Assembly (NCBI GenBank): GCA_902801685.1
Contig: CADCIZ010000005.1
Coordinates: 1 to 44,743 of the forward strand
Length of the DNA: 44,743 bases
Source: an uncultured Erysipelotrichaceae bacterium
GTDB lineage: Bacteria; Bacillota_I; Bacilli_A; RF39; UBA660
Reading direction: 5' to 3'
Shown: piece after piece, positions 3,198 to 36,785 of the stretch
Layout: every line of letters begins with the position of its first letter
Numbering within the stretch: the first letter of the stretch is position 1
The notes under the pieces: model-generated
Seen by the model: only the letters and a program-made list of their open reading frames with translations
Told to the model about the DNA's origin: nothing
Database searches by the model: none
Made by a program: the position numbers and the translations under genes

Positions 3198-3218
3198 CTT
3201 TTGGTAGGTGGTGGTATT

Positions 3219-4622
3219 ATGTTGCCTAATTTATTAGAAGCAAAAAAAAGAACTAATAATAAAGTTAAAAATTATAAATATATTAAAGATGATAAATATA
3301 AAGAAGTAGGTAAGAATAAAACATATTATATTAAAACTTATGGTTGTCAGATGAATGTTCATGATAGTGAGAATATAAAAGCACTTCTGGAAGAGATGAG
3401 TTTTAGCGAAGTAGACAATATGGAATGTGCTGATTTAATAATACTTAATACTTGCGCGATAAGGGAAAATGCTCACAATAAGGTATTTGGTTTCTTAGGT
3501 AGAGTAAAACATTTAAAAGAAACTAAAGATGTTATTACAGGTATTTGTGGATGTATGGCACAAGAAGAAAATGTTGTAAATGAAATTAAAAATAAATATA
3601 AGTGGGTAGATATCGTATTCGGTACTCATAATATTTCTGAATTACCACGCATACTTAGTGATAGTATAAACAATAATAAACAAGAAATAGAAGTATTAAG
3701 TTGTGAAGGAGATATTATAGAAGATATCCCTGTTAAAAGAGATTCTAAGTATAAAGCATGGGTTAATATTATGTATGGTTGTGATAAGTTTTGTACTTAT
3801 TGCATAGTTCCATATACTAGAGGAAAACAAAGAAGTAGACGTCCCTTAGATATAATTAGAGAAGTTGAAAAACTAGTTAAAGATGGTTATAAAGAAGTAA
3901 CACTATTAGGGCAGAATGTAAATGCTTATGGAAAAGATTTAGAATTAAACTATTACATGGGAGATTTACTTAGGGATGTAGCTAAAACAGGAATAGCTAG
4001 AGTTAGATTTGTAACAAGTCATCCCTGGGACTTTACAGATGAAATGATTACTATTATAAAAGAATATGATAATGTTATGCCATATATCCATTTACCTTTA
4101 CAAAGTGGTTCTAATCGTATATTAAAACTAATGGGTAGAAGATATACTAAAGAGTCTTACTTAGAATTATTTAATAAATTAAAAACTATACCTAACGTGT
4201 CTATTACTACAGATATTATAGTAGGTTTTCCAGGAGAAACTGAAGAAGATTTTAAAGAAACATTAGATGTAGTTAATACTTGTAAGTATGACTCAGCATT
4301 TACATTTATATTTTCACCAAGAGAGGGTACACCAGCTGCTAAAATGAAAGATGATGTATCACTAGATACTAAAAATGATAGGTTACAAAGATTAAATGAA
4401 CTAGTTAATAAGTATGCAAATCTTAATAATCAAAAATACTTAAATAAGATAGTAGATGTATTAATAGAAGATAAGTCAAATAAAGAAGATTACTTAATGG
4501 GATATACAGATACTATGAAATTAGTCAATGTTAAATGTGATACAAAATATCTAGGTAAAATAGTTAAGGTAAAAATTACTGATGTTAAGACATGGAGCCT
4601 TGATGGAGAATTAGTCGAATAA
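3219..4622 (+). CDS. miaB: tRNA-2-methylthio-N6-dimethylallyladenosine synthase
   Basis: This radical-SAM methylthiotransferase adds the 2-methylthio group to i6A37 of tRNAs reading UNN codons. The three N-terminal [4Fe-4S] cysteines are in TYGCQMN (Cys43), NTCAIREN (Cys79) and CGCMAQE (Cys112). The radical-SAM cluster motif CDKFCTYC gives Cys188, 192 and 195, and a TRAM RNA-binding domain closes the protein. I start at ATG 3219 because GGTAGGTGGTGG (3203-3214) is a good SD and the promoter -10 is at 3192-3197. A TTG at 3201 would lie before or at the transcription start. In Bacillus miaB lies close to mutS. Here about 4.4 kb of accessory and metabolic sequence separates them. Confidence 0.95.
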   Translation: MLPNLLEAKKRTNNKVKNYKYIKDDKYKEVGKNKTYYIKTYGCQMNVHDSENIKALLEEMSFSEVDNMECADLIILNTCAIRENAHNKVFGFLGRVKHLKETKDVITGICGCMAQEENVVNEIKNKYKWVDIVFGTHNISELPRILSDSINNNKQEIEVLSCEGDIIEDIPVKRDSKYKAWVNIMYGCDKFCTYCIVPYTRGKQRSRRPLDIIREVEKLVKDGYKEVTLLGQNVNAYGKDLELNYYMGDLLRDVAKTGIARVRFVTSHPWDFTDEMITIIKEYDNVMPYIHLPLQSGSNRILKLMGRRYTKESYLELFNKLKTIPNVSITTDIIVGFPGETEEDFKETLDVVNTCKYDSAFTFIFSPREGTPAAKMKDDVSLDTKNDRLQRLNELVNKYANLNNQKYLNKIVDVLIEDKSNKEDYLMGYTDTMKLVNVKCDTKYLGKIVKVKITDVKTWSLDGELVE

Positions 4623-4639
4623 ATAATTAATAAATATAG

Positions 4640-4800
4640 GAAAACTTGCACAATGACATGCGGAATAATTGCACAACAAAATATAGAAAATTTGCACAGC
4701 AATAAATATTATTAATATATTTAGATGATGCAAAAGAAAACTTTGATACAAGATGAAGATACAGGGAGTTATATATAACAGCATTAAAAAATTAATTTGC
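4640..4800 (+). repeat. iterated TTGCACA motifs; decayed cassette promoter
   Basis: TTGCACA occurs near 4645, 4669, 4691 and 4797, with a variant TTTGCGCA near 5268. The copies at 4796 and 5267 are the -35 elements of the two antisense-RNA promoters of the cassettes. The copy near 4690 is followed after about 19 bases by TATATTTAGATGATG, which resembles the cassette layout TATTATGTATATAGATGAGG. It is therefore probably the remnant of a third copy. No coding region is visible here. Confidence 0.45.
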
Positions 4801-4825
4801 ACAAATCTAAATTATATGATATTAT
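4796..4825 (+). promoter_or_regulatory. antisense RNA promoter, cassette A
   Basis: TTTGCA (4796-4801), an 18-base spacer, and TATTAT (4820-4825) with TG upstream (extended -10). The layout is the same as in cassette B at 5267-5296. Confidence 0.6.
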
Positions 4826-4853
4826 GTATATAGATGAGGAATACTCATATAAT

Positions 4854-4892
4854 AAAAAAAGGATACGTTTGATGTGCTAATCAGACGCTTCC
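4854..4892 (-). terminator. terminator of the peptide mRNA, cassette A
   Basis: Read on the minus strand, GGAAGCGTCTGA pairs imperfectly with TCAAACGTATCC and is followed by seven T. The same DNA encodes a 5' hairpin of the opposing + strand RNA, so one inverted repeat serves both transcripts. Confidence 0.5.
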
Positions 4893-4908
4893 TCAAAATT
4901 TTTTGGGC

Positions 4909-4950
4909 GGCATCTGAGACAACATTGTTGAATCAGATGCCTTTACTTAT
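4909..4950 (+). terminator. terminator of the antisense RNA, cassette A
   Basis: GGCATCTGA (4909-4917) pairs with TCAGATGCC (4933-4941), with CAAC/GTTG stacked inside, followed by TTTACTTAT. Confidence 0.6.
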
Positions 4951-5042
4951 CTTACGATAAGTGTTATTATCAGCGATATAATTATTACTAATAATAGAAA
5001 TATAAAAGTATACAGAATTTTTTCTCTGTTAATATTCTTCAT
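4947..5042 (-). CDS. 31-residue hydrophobic peptide, candidate type I toxin A
   Basis: This small minus-strand gene starts at ATG 5042 and has a strong SD (GGAGGA, 5048-5053) five bases upstream. The peptide has a short charged head (MKNINREK), one membrane segment made almost wholly of I, L, V and F, and a final Arg. It is preceded by its own promoter (-35 TTGTAC, -10 TATAAT) and faces a convergent antisense RNA that starts on the + strand. Size, charge pattern and RNA layout fit membrane-acting type I toxins. I do not recognise the sequence as Fst, TxpA, BsrG or Ibs. It shares only general character with the peptide of cassette B. Confidence 0.62.
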   Translation of the reverse strand: MKNINREKILYTFIFLLLVIIISLIITLIVR

Positions 5043-5130
5043 ATTTGTCCTCCTATAATATCAAGATAAAGGCCAAAACCCTCTGATAATAATAGAAGGA
5101 AGCATCTGAATTTCAAACGTATCCGGTGAC

Positions 5131-5159
5131 ATTATAACACAAATGGACAAGCAGTACAA
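5131..5159 (-). promoter_or_regulatory. peptide mRNA promoter, cassette A
   Basis: On the minus strand: TTGTAC (5159-5154), a 17-base spacer, and TATAAT (5136-5131) with an upstream TGT. The predicted start at 5124 is exactly the first G of GGATACGTTTGA. The long 5' leader (about 80 bases) before the peptide is typical of type I toxin mRNAs. Confidence 0.7.
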
Positions 5160-5266: not shown

Positions 5267-5296
5267 TTTGCGCAAAACTAAATTATGTGCTATTAT
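5267..5296 (+). promoter_or_regulatory. antisense RNA promoter, cassette B
   Basis: TTTGCG (5267-5272), an 18-base spacer, and TATTAT (5291-5296) with TGC before it. It is closely conserved with cassette A through the downstream TATATAGATGAGG. Confidence 0.6.
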
Positions 5297-5321
5297 GTAT
5301 ATAGATGAGGAAACCTCATAT

Positions 5322-5362
5322 AATAAAAAAGGATACGTTTGAAGTGAGAATCAGACGTCTCC
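5322..5362 (-). terminator. terminator of the peptide mRNA, cassette B
   Basis: On the minus strand GGAGACGTCTGA pairs with TCAAACGTATCC and is followed by TTTTTT. It is the mirror of the 5' hairpin of the + strand RNA, as in cassette A. Confidence 0.5.
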
Positions 5363-5375
5363 TAACTTAAGGGGC

Positions 5376-5415
5376 ACATCTGAAATAGGCTTATTATATT
5401 TCAGATGTTTTTTTC
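5376..5415 (+). terminator. terminator of the antisense RNA, cassette B
   Basis: ACATCTGAAATA (5376-5387) pairs perfectly with TATTTCAGATGT (5397-5408) and is followed by a run of T. Confidence 0.85.
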
Positions 5416-5489
5416 TAATTCTTTGAAATTAGTATAATGATAATTAGAACTAGAATGATTACAACTAAATGTAATTCTCTCTTTGTCAT
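5415..5489 (-). CDS. 24-residue hydrophobic peptide, candidate type I toxin B
   Basis: The minus-strand ATG at 5489 is preceded by AAAGGA at nine bases. The peptide begins MTKRELHL and continues as one run of V, I and L, ending SKN. It is the same kind of short charged head plus single membrane segment as peptide A, but shorter and not clearly alignable. It lies inside an equivalent cassette, with opposing promoter, direct repeats and terminators in the same places. Being too small for gene finders, it would be missed by routine annotation. Confidence 0.6.
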   Translation of the reverse strand: MTKRELHLVVIILVLIIIILISKN

Positions 5490-5584
5490 ATTATCACATC
5501 CTTTCTTAAACCAAACCCCACTAAAGTATAAGCCAATTTTTTTAAGAAAGGACAACATCTGAAATTCAAACATATCCGAGATGT

Positions 5585-5685: not shown

Positions 5686-5856
5686 GTACAATGGTATTAG
5701 AAGGCAAGGAGGAGATAAATATAATAATGAGATACCACTAGTGTACATGCTAGAAAAAATATGTTCTAATTTAATTAGAGTTGATGACTACTCAATAGTA
5801 TATTTTATAGTTATTTGACATGCTATAAAATATAAGTGTGAAAGGATATGATAATA

Positions 5857-6798
5857 ATGTTAAATAATATGTCAAAGAAAAAAAGGAGAGGTTTTACTCT
5901 CATCGAATTAGTAGCAGTATTAGTTATTATGGCTATACTTGCTCTTATTGTAACTCCATTAGTTATGAACATAATTAGAAAGGCTAGAATCTCTGCAGAC
6001 AAAAGAAGTATTGATGCATATGGAAGAAGTATTGAACTAGCAATTGCTTCATATTTGCTTGATACAGGTAAATTTCCAACATCAGTAGATCAACTTACAA
6101 TTGAGTATAGTGGAAATGAAGTAGTATGTTCAACAACACAAATAAACAGTGATTCATCAGTATATCTAACTGGTTGTAAAGTAAAGAATCGTAATGTAGA
6201 AGGATATAAATATGGAAAATATGAAGCTCCAACATATGATACATATTCTATAGGTGATCATATCTCATATAATGGAGTAACTTATTATGTAATTGAAGAT
6301 AGTAGCACTACTAATGATACAGTAAAATTACTAAAAGAAACTCCATTATTAAAAACAGAGATTGAAGGATATAATATTGATGGGTTAACTGTATCTGGGT
6401 CAACATATGGAGAGATACAATATGGAAGTTCAACGGATTATGAAACATCTGCAGTAAAGAAAGTAGTAGATAAGTGGGCAGAAGGTGCAGTTAAATCTGG
6501 AGATACCGCAATTGCAAGATTGATTAGTGTTGATGAATTAACAAATAATCTAGGCTATGTATATGACGACATTAATCCAACAAACATTTTTTATGTTTCT
6601 ACTGAATCAACACCAATCTGGGTATATAATATTCTAGGTTATTGGACAATGTCACCCTTCCTAGACTCATTGTATATTTGGAGAGTTGACTATGATGGCC
6701 GTCATATACGGGAATTTGATCCTTCAATTGCTATTAGTACAGTTTGTCCTGTTCTAGAAATTTCAAAAACTGCTGAATTAACTAAAATTGCTTCATAG
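5857..6798 (+). CDS. type IV prepilin-like protein with C-terminal lectin-like domain
   Basis: The N-terminus is a classic class III signal: basic head (SKKKRR), cleavage site G|FTLIE with Glu at +5, then a 20-residue hydrophobic helix (N-methylation domain). After an alpha-helical pilin stretch, residues from about 120 on form a second domain with YSIGDHISYNGVTYYVI, ARLISVDEL and STPIWVYN..YWT, ending CPVLEIS. The same domain is found in the Tad-locus protein at 18980-19782. Its end resembles DUF6273/C-type-lectin-like domains (W..D.DG...RPV). I choose ATG 5857 because AAAGGA (5841-5846) is too close to the ATG at 5848. It needs a prepilin peptidase, which is not in this window. Codons in the last 60 residues (CCC, TTC, GGC, CGG) are richer in G and C than in the rest of the gene. 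Confidence 0.78.
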   Translation: MLNNMSKKKRRGFTLIELVAVLVIMAILALIVTPLVMNIIRKARISADKRSIDAYGRSIELAIASYLLDTGKFPTSVDQLTIEYSGNEVVCSTTQINSDSSVYLTGCKVKNRNVEGYKYGKYEAPTYDTYSIGDHISYNGVTYYVIEDSSTTNDTVKLLKETPLLKTEIEGYNIDGLTVSGSTYGEIQYGSSTDYETSAVKKVVDKWAEGAVKSGDTAIARLISVDELTNNLGYVYDDINPTNIFYVSTESTPIWVYNILGYWTMSPFLDSLYIWRVDYDGRHIREFDPSIAISTVCPVLEISKTAELTKIAS

Positions 6799-36442: not shown

Positions 36443-36785
36443 AATACTTTGACAAACGCTGCATACTTGTTATGTAGAGGAAAGTCCATGCTCGCACAGT
36501 CTGCGATGACTGTAGTGTTTGTGCTTAGGGAAAAAATAACCTAAGGTAGCAATTTTTTTTGTTAACGGCTTCTGATGACCTAAGTCTATGATATGGTCTA
36601 GGATATAAAAGTGCCAAAGAGACGAGCCTTTTAGAAATAAAAGGTGTGGAACGTGGTAAACCCCACAAGCGAGAAACCCAAATTTTGGTAGGGGAACTTT
36701 GATAGGGAATTGAACTGATTCAAGGATCGAAAGATAGATAAATGTTTGTCACCCAAGTGGTACAGAACATGGCTTATAAAGTATT
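36443..36785 (+). ncRNA. rnpB: RNase P RNA, type B
   Basis: This is the catalytic RNA that makes the 5' ends of tRNAs. Conserved blocks: TAGAGGAAAGTCCATGCTCG near the 5' end (P4 strand), GTGGAACGTGGTAAACCCC, the P15/L15 region CCCAAATTTTGGTAGGGGAA, and ACAGAACATGGCTTA near the 3' end. P1 is formed by TACTTT (36445-36450) and AAAGTA (36778-36783), then a T run that may serve as terminator. At about 340 bases it is shorter than the Bacillus RNA (about 400), so some peripheral helices are reduced. Confidence 0.95.

Follow-up and report, generated by a model that had tools for sequence, protein, structure and literature searches.

A probable chromosomal type I toxin-antitoxin family, apparently undescribed, from uncultured gut Bacilli

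The window analyzed here is the whole 44,743-nucleotide stretch of contig CADCIZ010000005.1 from an uncultured Erysipelotrichaceae bacterium. With a probability that we put at roughly 0.86, its positions 4797 to 5159 (cassette A) hold a type I toxin-antitoxin unit of the chromosome, one member of a large and apparently undescribed family. A 31-amino acid single-pass membrane peptide encoded on the minus strand is the presumed toxin, and a predicted RNA read convergently from the plus strand is its presumed antitoxin. Comparison among the related cassettes shows promoters, RNA structures, two separate RNA pairings and purifying selection on the reading frames, as well as co-occurrence of toxin and antitoxin. 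The assignment of these two roles, proposed in a first-pass annotation that covered one or two cassettes, is thus supported by the conserved frame, by the pairing, and by antitoxin genes that outlast a broken toxin gene.

Results

Genetic Organization of Cassette A

Inspection of the sequence revealed two facing promoters, one for the plus-strand RNA and the other for the minus-strand mRNA (Table 1). Both have a 17-nt spacer, had been recognized in the first-pass annotation, and are conserved in relatives. In 139 aligned cassettes, the −35 region, the A-tract and the −10 region linked to the antitoxin promoter are all conserved; an A is found at positions −6 to −1 before the second hairpin (hp2) in 92-100% of them. 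The −10 region of the toxin promoter is present at the same spacing as an exact TATAAT in 111 of 138 relatives and conforms to TANNAT in 131 of the 138.

Table 1. Predicted features of cassettes A and B (positions refer to the window).
Feature	Position	Strand	Basis
Antitoxin RNA promoter, TTGCAC-17 nt-TATTAT	4797..4825 (TTGCAC 4797-4802; TATTAT 4820-4825)	+	sequence; conserved in aligned cassettes
Toxin mRNA promoter, TTGTAC-17 nt-TATAAT	5131..5159 (TTGTAC 5159-5154; TATAAT 5136-5131)	-	sequence; relatives
Predicted antitoxin RNA, ~115 nt	4832..4948	+	R1 covariance model match, fold
Antitoxin RNA 5' hairpin (hp1)	4834..4848	+	predicted fold
A-tract; on the minus strand, U-tract of the toxin mRNA terminator	4854..4860	+	139 cassettes
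Antitoxin RNA second hairpin (hp2, arms a and b')	4861..4892	+	covariation; near-identical to toxin leader
Antitoxin RNA terminator hairpin and T-rich tail	4909..4949 (hairpin 4909-4941)	+	sequence, covariation, fold; 5' arm GCATCTGA complementary to toxin leader
Predicted toxin mRNA, ~270 nt	4854..5126	-	fold with 5'-3' pairing
Likely toxin mRNA terminator, reverse complement of hp2 plus U-tract	4893 down to ~4854	-	
Toxin ORF, 31 aa, MKNINREKILYTFIFLLLVIIISLIITLIVR	4947..5042	-	ORF call, protein-level conservation
Shine-Dalgarno sequence AGGAGG, 6 nt before ATG	5049..5054	-	sequence; predicted pairing with upstream CCUUC
Toxin leader: arm a GGATACGTTTGA, arm b TCAGATGCTTCC	5098..5124	-	repeat and pairing tests
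Direct repeat GCATCTGA	4910-4917 and 5102-5109		
Outer inverted repeat, 12/12 match	4861-4872 / 5113-5124		
Cassette B, second complete unit	5267..5582		antisense RNA 5301-5415 (+); toxin ORF 5489-5415 (-) MTKRELHLVVIILVLIIIILISKN; leader arm a 5577-5566 (-)

The antitoxin RNA is matched at G000:C5:4830-4947 (89.6 bits) by R1, a covariance model that we built from 61 antisense RNAs. Its predicted fold (z = −7.1), like those of the toxin mRNAs of cassette A (z = −10.4) and cassette B (z = −6.9), is better than all of 200 shuffles. The mirrored 5' hairpins proposed earlier were only partly borne out: the leader hairpin does have a match, but this is the second hairpin of the plus-strand RNA, which follows a separate hp1.

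An intrinsic terminator had also been assigned to each RNA. That of the plus-strand RNA was found; the minus-strand RNA likely ends at the reverse complement of hp2 and the U-tract behind it, and with a terminator at this position the toxin mRNA would span the whole antisense gene except for its 5' hairpin. The stem of the antisense terminator lies within the toxin mRNA and has no U-tract in the toxin direction, while a conserved U-tract follows the hp2 complement; both 3' ends are predicted ones. A simple consensus terminator scan of cassette A flagged neither terminator; the one of the plus-strand RNA escaped it since its tail reads only TTTACTT and its loop structure falls outside the scanner's pattern. 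Upstream of the cassette (window positions 4640-4720), there are several TTGCAC-containing stretches that resemble degenerate promoters or cassette remnants.

Size and Distribution of the Cassette Family

A DNA search located 12 matching sites in the host genome and gave matches for 44 of the 98 relatives, almost all from the same family. We pooled these with 113 stretches from GTDB genomes (MAGs from rabbit, goat, sheep and other guts, labeled Bacilli, Tenericutes or Erysipelotrichaceae) and thereby obtained 211 distinct cassettes. The host, a small gut bacterium, possesses 11 antisense-RNA matches, at least 10 of which (cassette B among them) are accompanied by a toxin-like ORF; the copy at C2:50993-51110 consists of an antisense RNA without such an ORF. 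Within the host's family, model R1 finds matches in 171 of 243 genomes and in 109 of 148 genera; outside this family it finds one in ~217 genomes of the class, the same single genome being recovered in the class- and phylum-wide samples. This sole outside match (G413:C32; L231 2247-2363), in class-mate f5, has a complete MKKRIFVIKVL-type toxin and reflects either horizontal transfer or MAG contamination. There are up to at least 15 antisense-RNA matches per genome, in genomes mostly of 1-1.7 Mb. Genomes G045 and G188 carry many toxins with low-scoring antisense RNAs, which suggests additional, more divergent sub-families to which model R1 is insufficiently sensitive.

Searches for mobile carriers were negative: one representative toxin peptide had no match among plasmids, the cassette DNA had none among phage records, a 26-base cassette pattern had none in viral contigs, and the nine viral-contig matches to a 19-base pattern were not convincing by the covariance model. 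The first-pass annotation had called the unit undescribed-looking, and searches of Pfam, NCBIfam and PHROGs with the peptides and a search of Rfam indeed gave no match; sRNA_1300 (Rfam, E 0.44) was a weak match at chance level and was rejected.

Genomic Surroundings

Cassettes A and B are positioned between a radical-SAM methylthiotransferase gene (3201-4622) and a prepilin-like gene (5848-6798; N_methyl). At the same site, relative G004 has a cassette plus the prepilin-like gene; in relative G005 the two flanking genes are 45 bp apart, and neither a cassette nor the prepilin gene is present. Since the site is occupied in one relative and empty in the other, cassettes are gained and lost over time. 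The prepilin-like gene with its N_methyl motif sits in a variable island, found next to a cassette in G004 and missing along with the cassettes in G005; the idea that cassettes travel with it holds here and at a few other sites but not generally. A survey of neighboring genes across the cassettes uncovered no common partner gene and no transposase pattern; the neighbors, identified by eye from the sequences, form a varied set, with tRNA synthetases and SmpB-like genes among them. Elsewhere in the window (36444-36781) lies an RNase P RNA of class B, the class expected in Bacilli.

Covariation and Pairing Between the Two RNAs

The hairpins of the antisense RNA covary, in that 10 of their 13 predicted pairs have changed in a compensatory manner; hp1 stands outside this formal count, MAFFT having misaligned the 5' hairpin in alignment A1, though both of its arms show base changes. 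G.U pairs are frequent in these hairpins where A.C combinations are rare, which argues that selection acts on the plus-strand RNA.

The two arms of the toxin leader were then compared separately with their counterparts. Within one cassette, leader arm a and its antisense counterpart agree at 9.9 of 12 positions vs. 7.7 in mismatched cassettes (18 types; permutation p = 5e-5, although relatedness of the sequences makes this and the other permutation and binomial p-values overstate independence). Identity of these arms makes the 5' end of the mRNA complementary to its own 3' end. Hence, the outer inverted repeat, viewed earlier as an extra feature of the cassette, is present as described and likely allows the mRNA to pair its two ends. 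Closure of at least 10 pairs was predicted for 39 of 41 diverse mRNAs, and the predicted folds contain a mean of 22.8 such pairs vs. 3.8 when the leader is shuffled.

The direct repeat noted in the first-pass annotation as making the two RNAs complementary is present as well, and the pairing of leader arm b with the antisense RNA, at the 5' arm of its terminator, tracks across sequence types (score 15.1 vs. 11.2 for mismatched cassettes; p = 5e-5): a GGTGA leader is accompanied by TCACC in some types, and a GGTGC leader by GCACC in others. Differences between leader and partner keep rather than break G.U-tolerant pairing in ratios of 64:18, 99:21, and 44:10, counts that ignore relatedness. Global leader:antisense duplex energy gave the true pair a slight edge, with a cassette's own antisense RNA ranking top in just 2 of 40 cases. 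This signal is weak because cassettes of the same type pair with each other, and the arm-specific tests were used for this reason. For the host's GGATAC-type cassettes, pairing with one another's antisense RNAs is predicted, while the strongest predicted pairing of the C58 type is with itself (the leaders of the C3 copies were mislocated).

In the predicted mRNA folds, the Shine-Dalgarno sequence is held in a local stem by an upstream CCUUC. It is not overlapped by the antisense RNA, so that the way in which this RNA would block translation is not obvious from the sequence. Repression probably proceeds through duplex-dependent decay or through holding of the leader, and this is the least certain step of the mechanism.

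Protein-Level Selection and Decay of the Toxin Gene

The 31-residue membrane peptide and its strong Shine-Dalgarno sequence were found as originally annotated. A hydrophobic ORF of 17-45 amino acids led by a Shine-Dalgarno sequence is present on the opposite strand at the expected place in 156 of the 211 cassettes. In the comparison with control positions, the count was 151 of 211 true sites against none on the same strand, 2 in 203 further downstream, and 0.2% among shuffles. The 119 distinct toxin peptides collected typically take the forms MTKRE-xx-(I/L/F/V)-rich-K/R, MKNINREK..., MKKRIFIIKVL...IKK, MNKKDFLI... or MELLVL...IK.K. In the MELLVL-type cassettes L073, L071, and L019, the start of the toxin ORF is overlapped by a short upstream ORF with its own Shine-Dalgarno sequence, MHINIITGGLCWNY or a variant of it; such an overlapping ORF occurs in 4 of 9 ME-type cassettes vs. 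1 of 147 others.

Codon conservation and covariation in related genomes had been proposed as a check on the first reading, and the former was found alongside the latter. Pairwise Nei-Gojobori dN/dS values, calculated from non-independent pairs, lie between 0.14 and 0.24 in seven of the nine length classes (0.19 in the largest, with 85 ORFs of 25 aa) and 0.43 and 0.51 in two; the 31-aa class of cassette A (6 ORFs) stands at ~0.5. The ORF barely overlaps the antisense RNA, and this signal is therefore no by-product of RNA conservation.

A toxin-side search combined with a scan of the flanks revealed ~3 intact MTKRE-type toxins in ~75-80 without a recognizable antisense RNA, which is mostly located ~205-213 nt from the start codon of this toxin type (nhmmer). 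After manual inspection, the exceptions were L313 and L319, in which the antisense RNA is missing, and L310, in which the terminator remains while the promoter and the second hairpin are lost. Conversely, no intact toxin accompanies 55 of the 211 antisense RNAs, and in many such cases a broken frame is still visible (e.g., '...TKREISLFI...' minus the start codon). Retention of the antisense RNA next to a broken toxin, and rarely the reverse, is the asymmetry that decay of a toxin-antitoxin unit predicts. Broken frames between preserved flanks, which the first-pass annotation had named as a finding that would refute its proposal, affect a minority of the copies, and decaying units of this kind would be expected to show them.

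A conserved hydrophobic peptide need not be toxic. The cassettes could instead encode a small, non-toxic membrane peptide under antisense control that, for instance, modulates a transporter, and their chromosomal position beside varied housekeeping genes and the purifying selection would be in keeping with this. The many divergent paralogues per genome, the tandem copies and the patchy occupancy of sites fit a toxin-antitoxin unit better, and the RNA is retained where the peptide is broken. We consider a non-toxic role improbable and regard the peptide as a presumed toxin.

Comparison with Known Type I Systems

The Fst and Ldr peptides are characterized by a transmembrane helix, a Trp at its end, and a charged C-terminal tail. 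None of the 119 toxin peptides contains a Trp, and no Pfam Fst (E up to 10) or NCBIfam Fst match was obtained, in agreement with the earlier remark that the peptide is unlike Fst. The logic of the cassette nevertheless resembles that of Fst/par (pAD1 RNA I-RNA II), as had been proposed, in its convergent, conserved promoters for mRNA and antisense RNA, in a direct repeat read both ways that pairs with the leader, in leader:antisense complementarity that tracks across sequence types, in the 3' overlap, in a Shine-Dalgarno sequence held in a 5' stem-loop, and in a membrane peptide of about 30 amino acids. If the cassette were a diverged Fst/par locus in the strict sense, with an Fst-type toxin, RNA I and RNA II, these features would be accommodated, since par is described with convergent promoters, repeats transcribed in both directions, a 3' overlap, and a hairpin sequestering the Shine-Dalgarno sequence (PMC7472228). 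Against it stand the unrelated peptide, which lacks Trp, P-x-x-x-G and a long charged tail, the lack of a match to the Rfam Fst antitoxin RNA, and the apparently separate terminators of the two RNAs in place of one shared bidirectional terminator. Unlike in Fst/par, the leader of the cassette mRNA has a second predicted partner in the 3' end of the same molecule, the terminator stem doubles as the repeat, and the antitoxin has ~115 nt vs. the ~40 nt given for pAD1. We regard membership in Fst/par as improbable too, slightly more so than a non-toxic peptide. A dispersed selfish repeat with hairpins for DNA mobility and an incidental ORF, as the multiple copies, the inverted repeats and the site empty in one relative might suggest, is very improbable in view of dN/dS values of ~0.2, the conservation of Shine-Dalgarno sequence and promoters, a strand-specific tolerance of G.U that denotes selection on RNA, and neighbors devoid of a transposase pattern.

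The type I toxin-antitoxin reading finds further parallels elsewhere. IsoA is antisense to the 5' region of its toxin mRNA. In hok/sok, the 3' end of the mRNA folds back onto the 5' end as a dormancy device, and the mok ORF overlaps hok. In the Bacillus subtilis systems txpA/RatA, bsrG/SR4, and yonT/SR6, the antitoxin RNA overlaps the 3' end of the toxin mRNA, and we know of no leader repeat common to both RNAs in any of them. The cassettes share this 3' overlap, for which SR6 of yonT/SR6 is a documented example (PMC5848175). With AapA/IsoA of Helicobacter, whose AapA mRNA has a long-distance 5'-3' closure and hairpins sequestering the Shine-Dalgarno sequence (PMC6733600), they have in common the chromosomal location, several copies per genome, and the predicted 5'-3' closure of the toxin mRNA; they differ in an unrelated peptide and in an antisense gene located opposite the 3' end of the toxin mRNA, whose RNA would contact the leader by way of a repeat. 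Like hok/sok, they have a predicted fold-back closure, and the upstream ORF of the MELLVL sub-group overlaps the toxin start in the manner of mok-hok, but the peptide family and the antisense position are different and the lineage is Gram-positive.

Discussion

The mechanism that we propose joins the repeat logic of Fst/par with the long-distance lock of AapA and hok. While the toxin mRNA is transcribed, its Shine-Dalgarno sequence would be masked in the local hairpin. In the finished mRNA, the leader (arms a-b) would lock onto the reverse complement of hp2 at the mRNA's own 3' end and thereby render the molecule dormant. Loss or trimming of this 3' end would free the leader, after which the mRNA could be translated. 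The antitoxin would pair with ~80-90 nt of the mRNA 3' region and, by means of its terminator arm, with leader arm b. As it carries both the 3' complement and the leader-complementary arm, it could hold the mRNA even after 3' trimming; an mRNA held in this way would be marked for duplex-specific cleavage, in which we infer a role for RNase III, or kept untranslated.

The kind of system, a type I toxin-antitoxin unit, is already known; the peptides and the RNAs apparently form new families, and the way in which the controls are combined is apparently new too, as none of the three was found in the libraries and openly accessible literature searched. On balance, we favor the description of a new type I family with hundreds of copies in one uncultured family of gut Bacilli, in which a single module serves as antitoxin hairpin, as toxin mRNA terminator and as 3' lock on a copied leader, and in which several orthogonal types exist per genome.

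Type I systems are mostly recognized through similarity to a few known families, and their apparently narrow range has been attributed to search bias (PMC12390103). The present family was missed by Pfam, NCBIfam, PHROGs, and Rfam, yet it is found in most sampled genomes of a gut lineage. It combines two control devices, repeat-mediated antisense pairing and mRNA fold-back, that are described elsewhere in separate systems, and it supplies more than 200 naturally occurring versions of a single regulatory RNA pair, a number sufficient for deriving pairing rules. It also raises the question why reduced genomes retain so many of these units.
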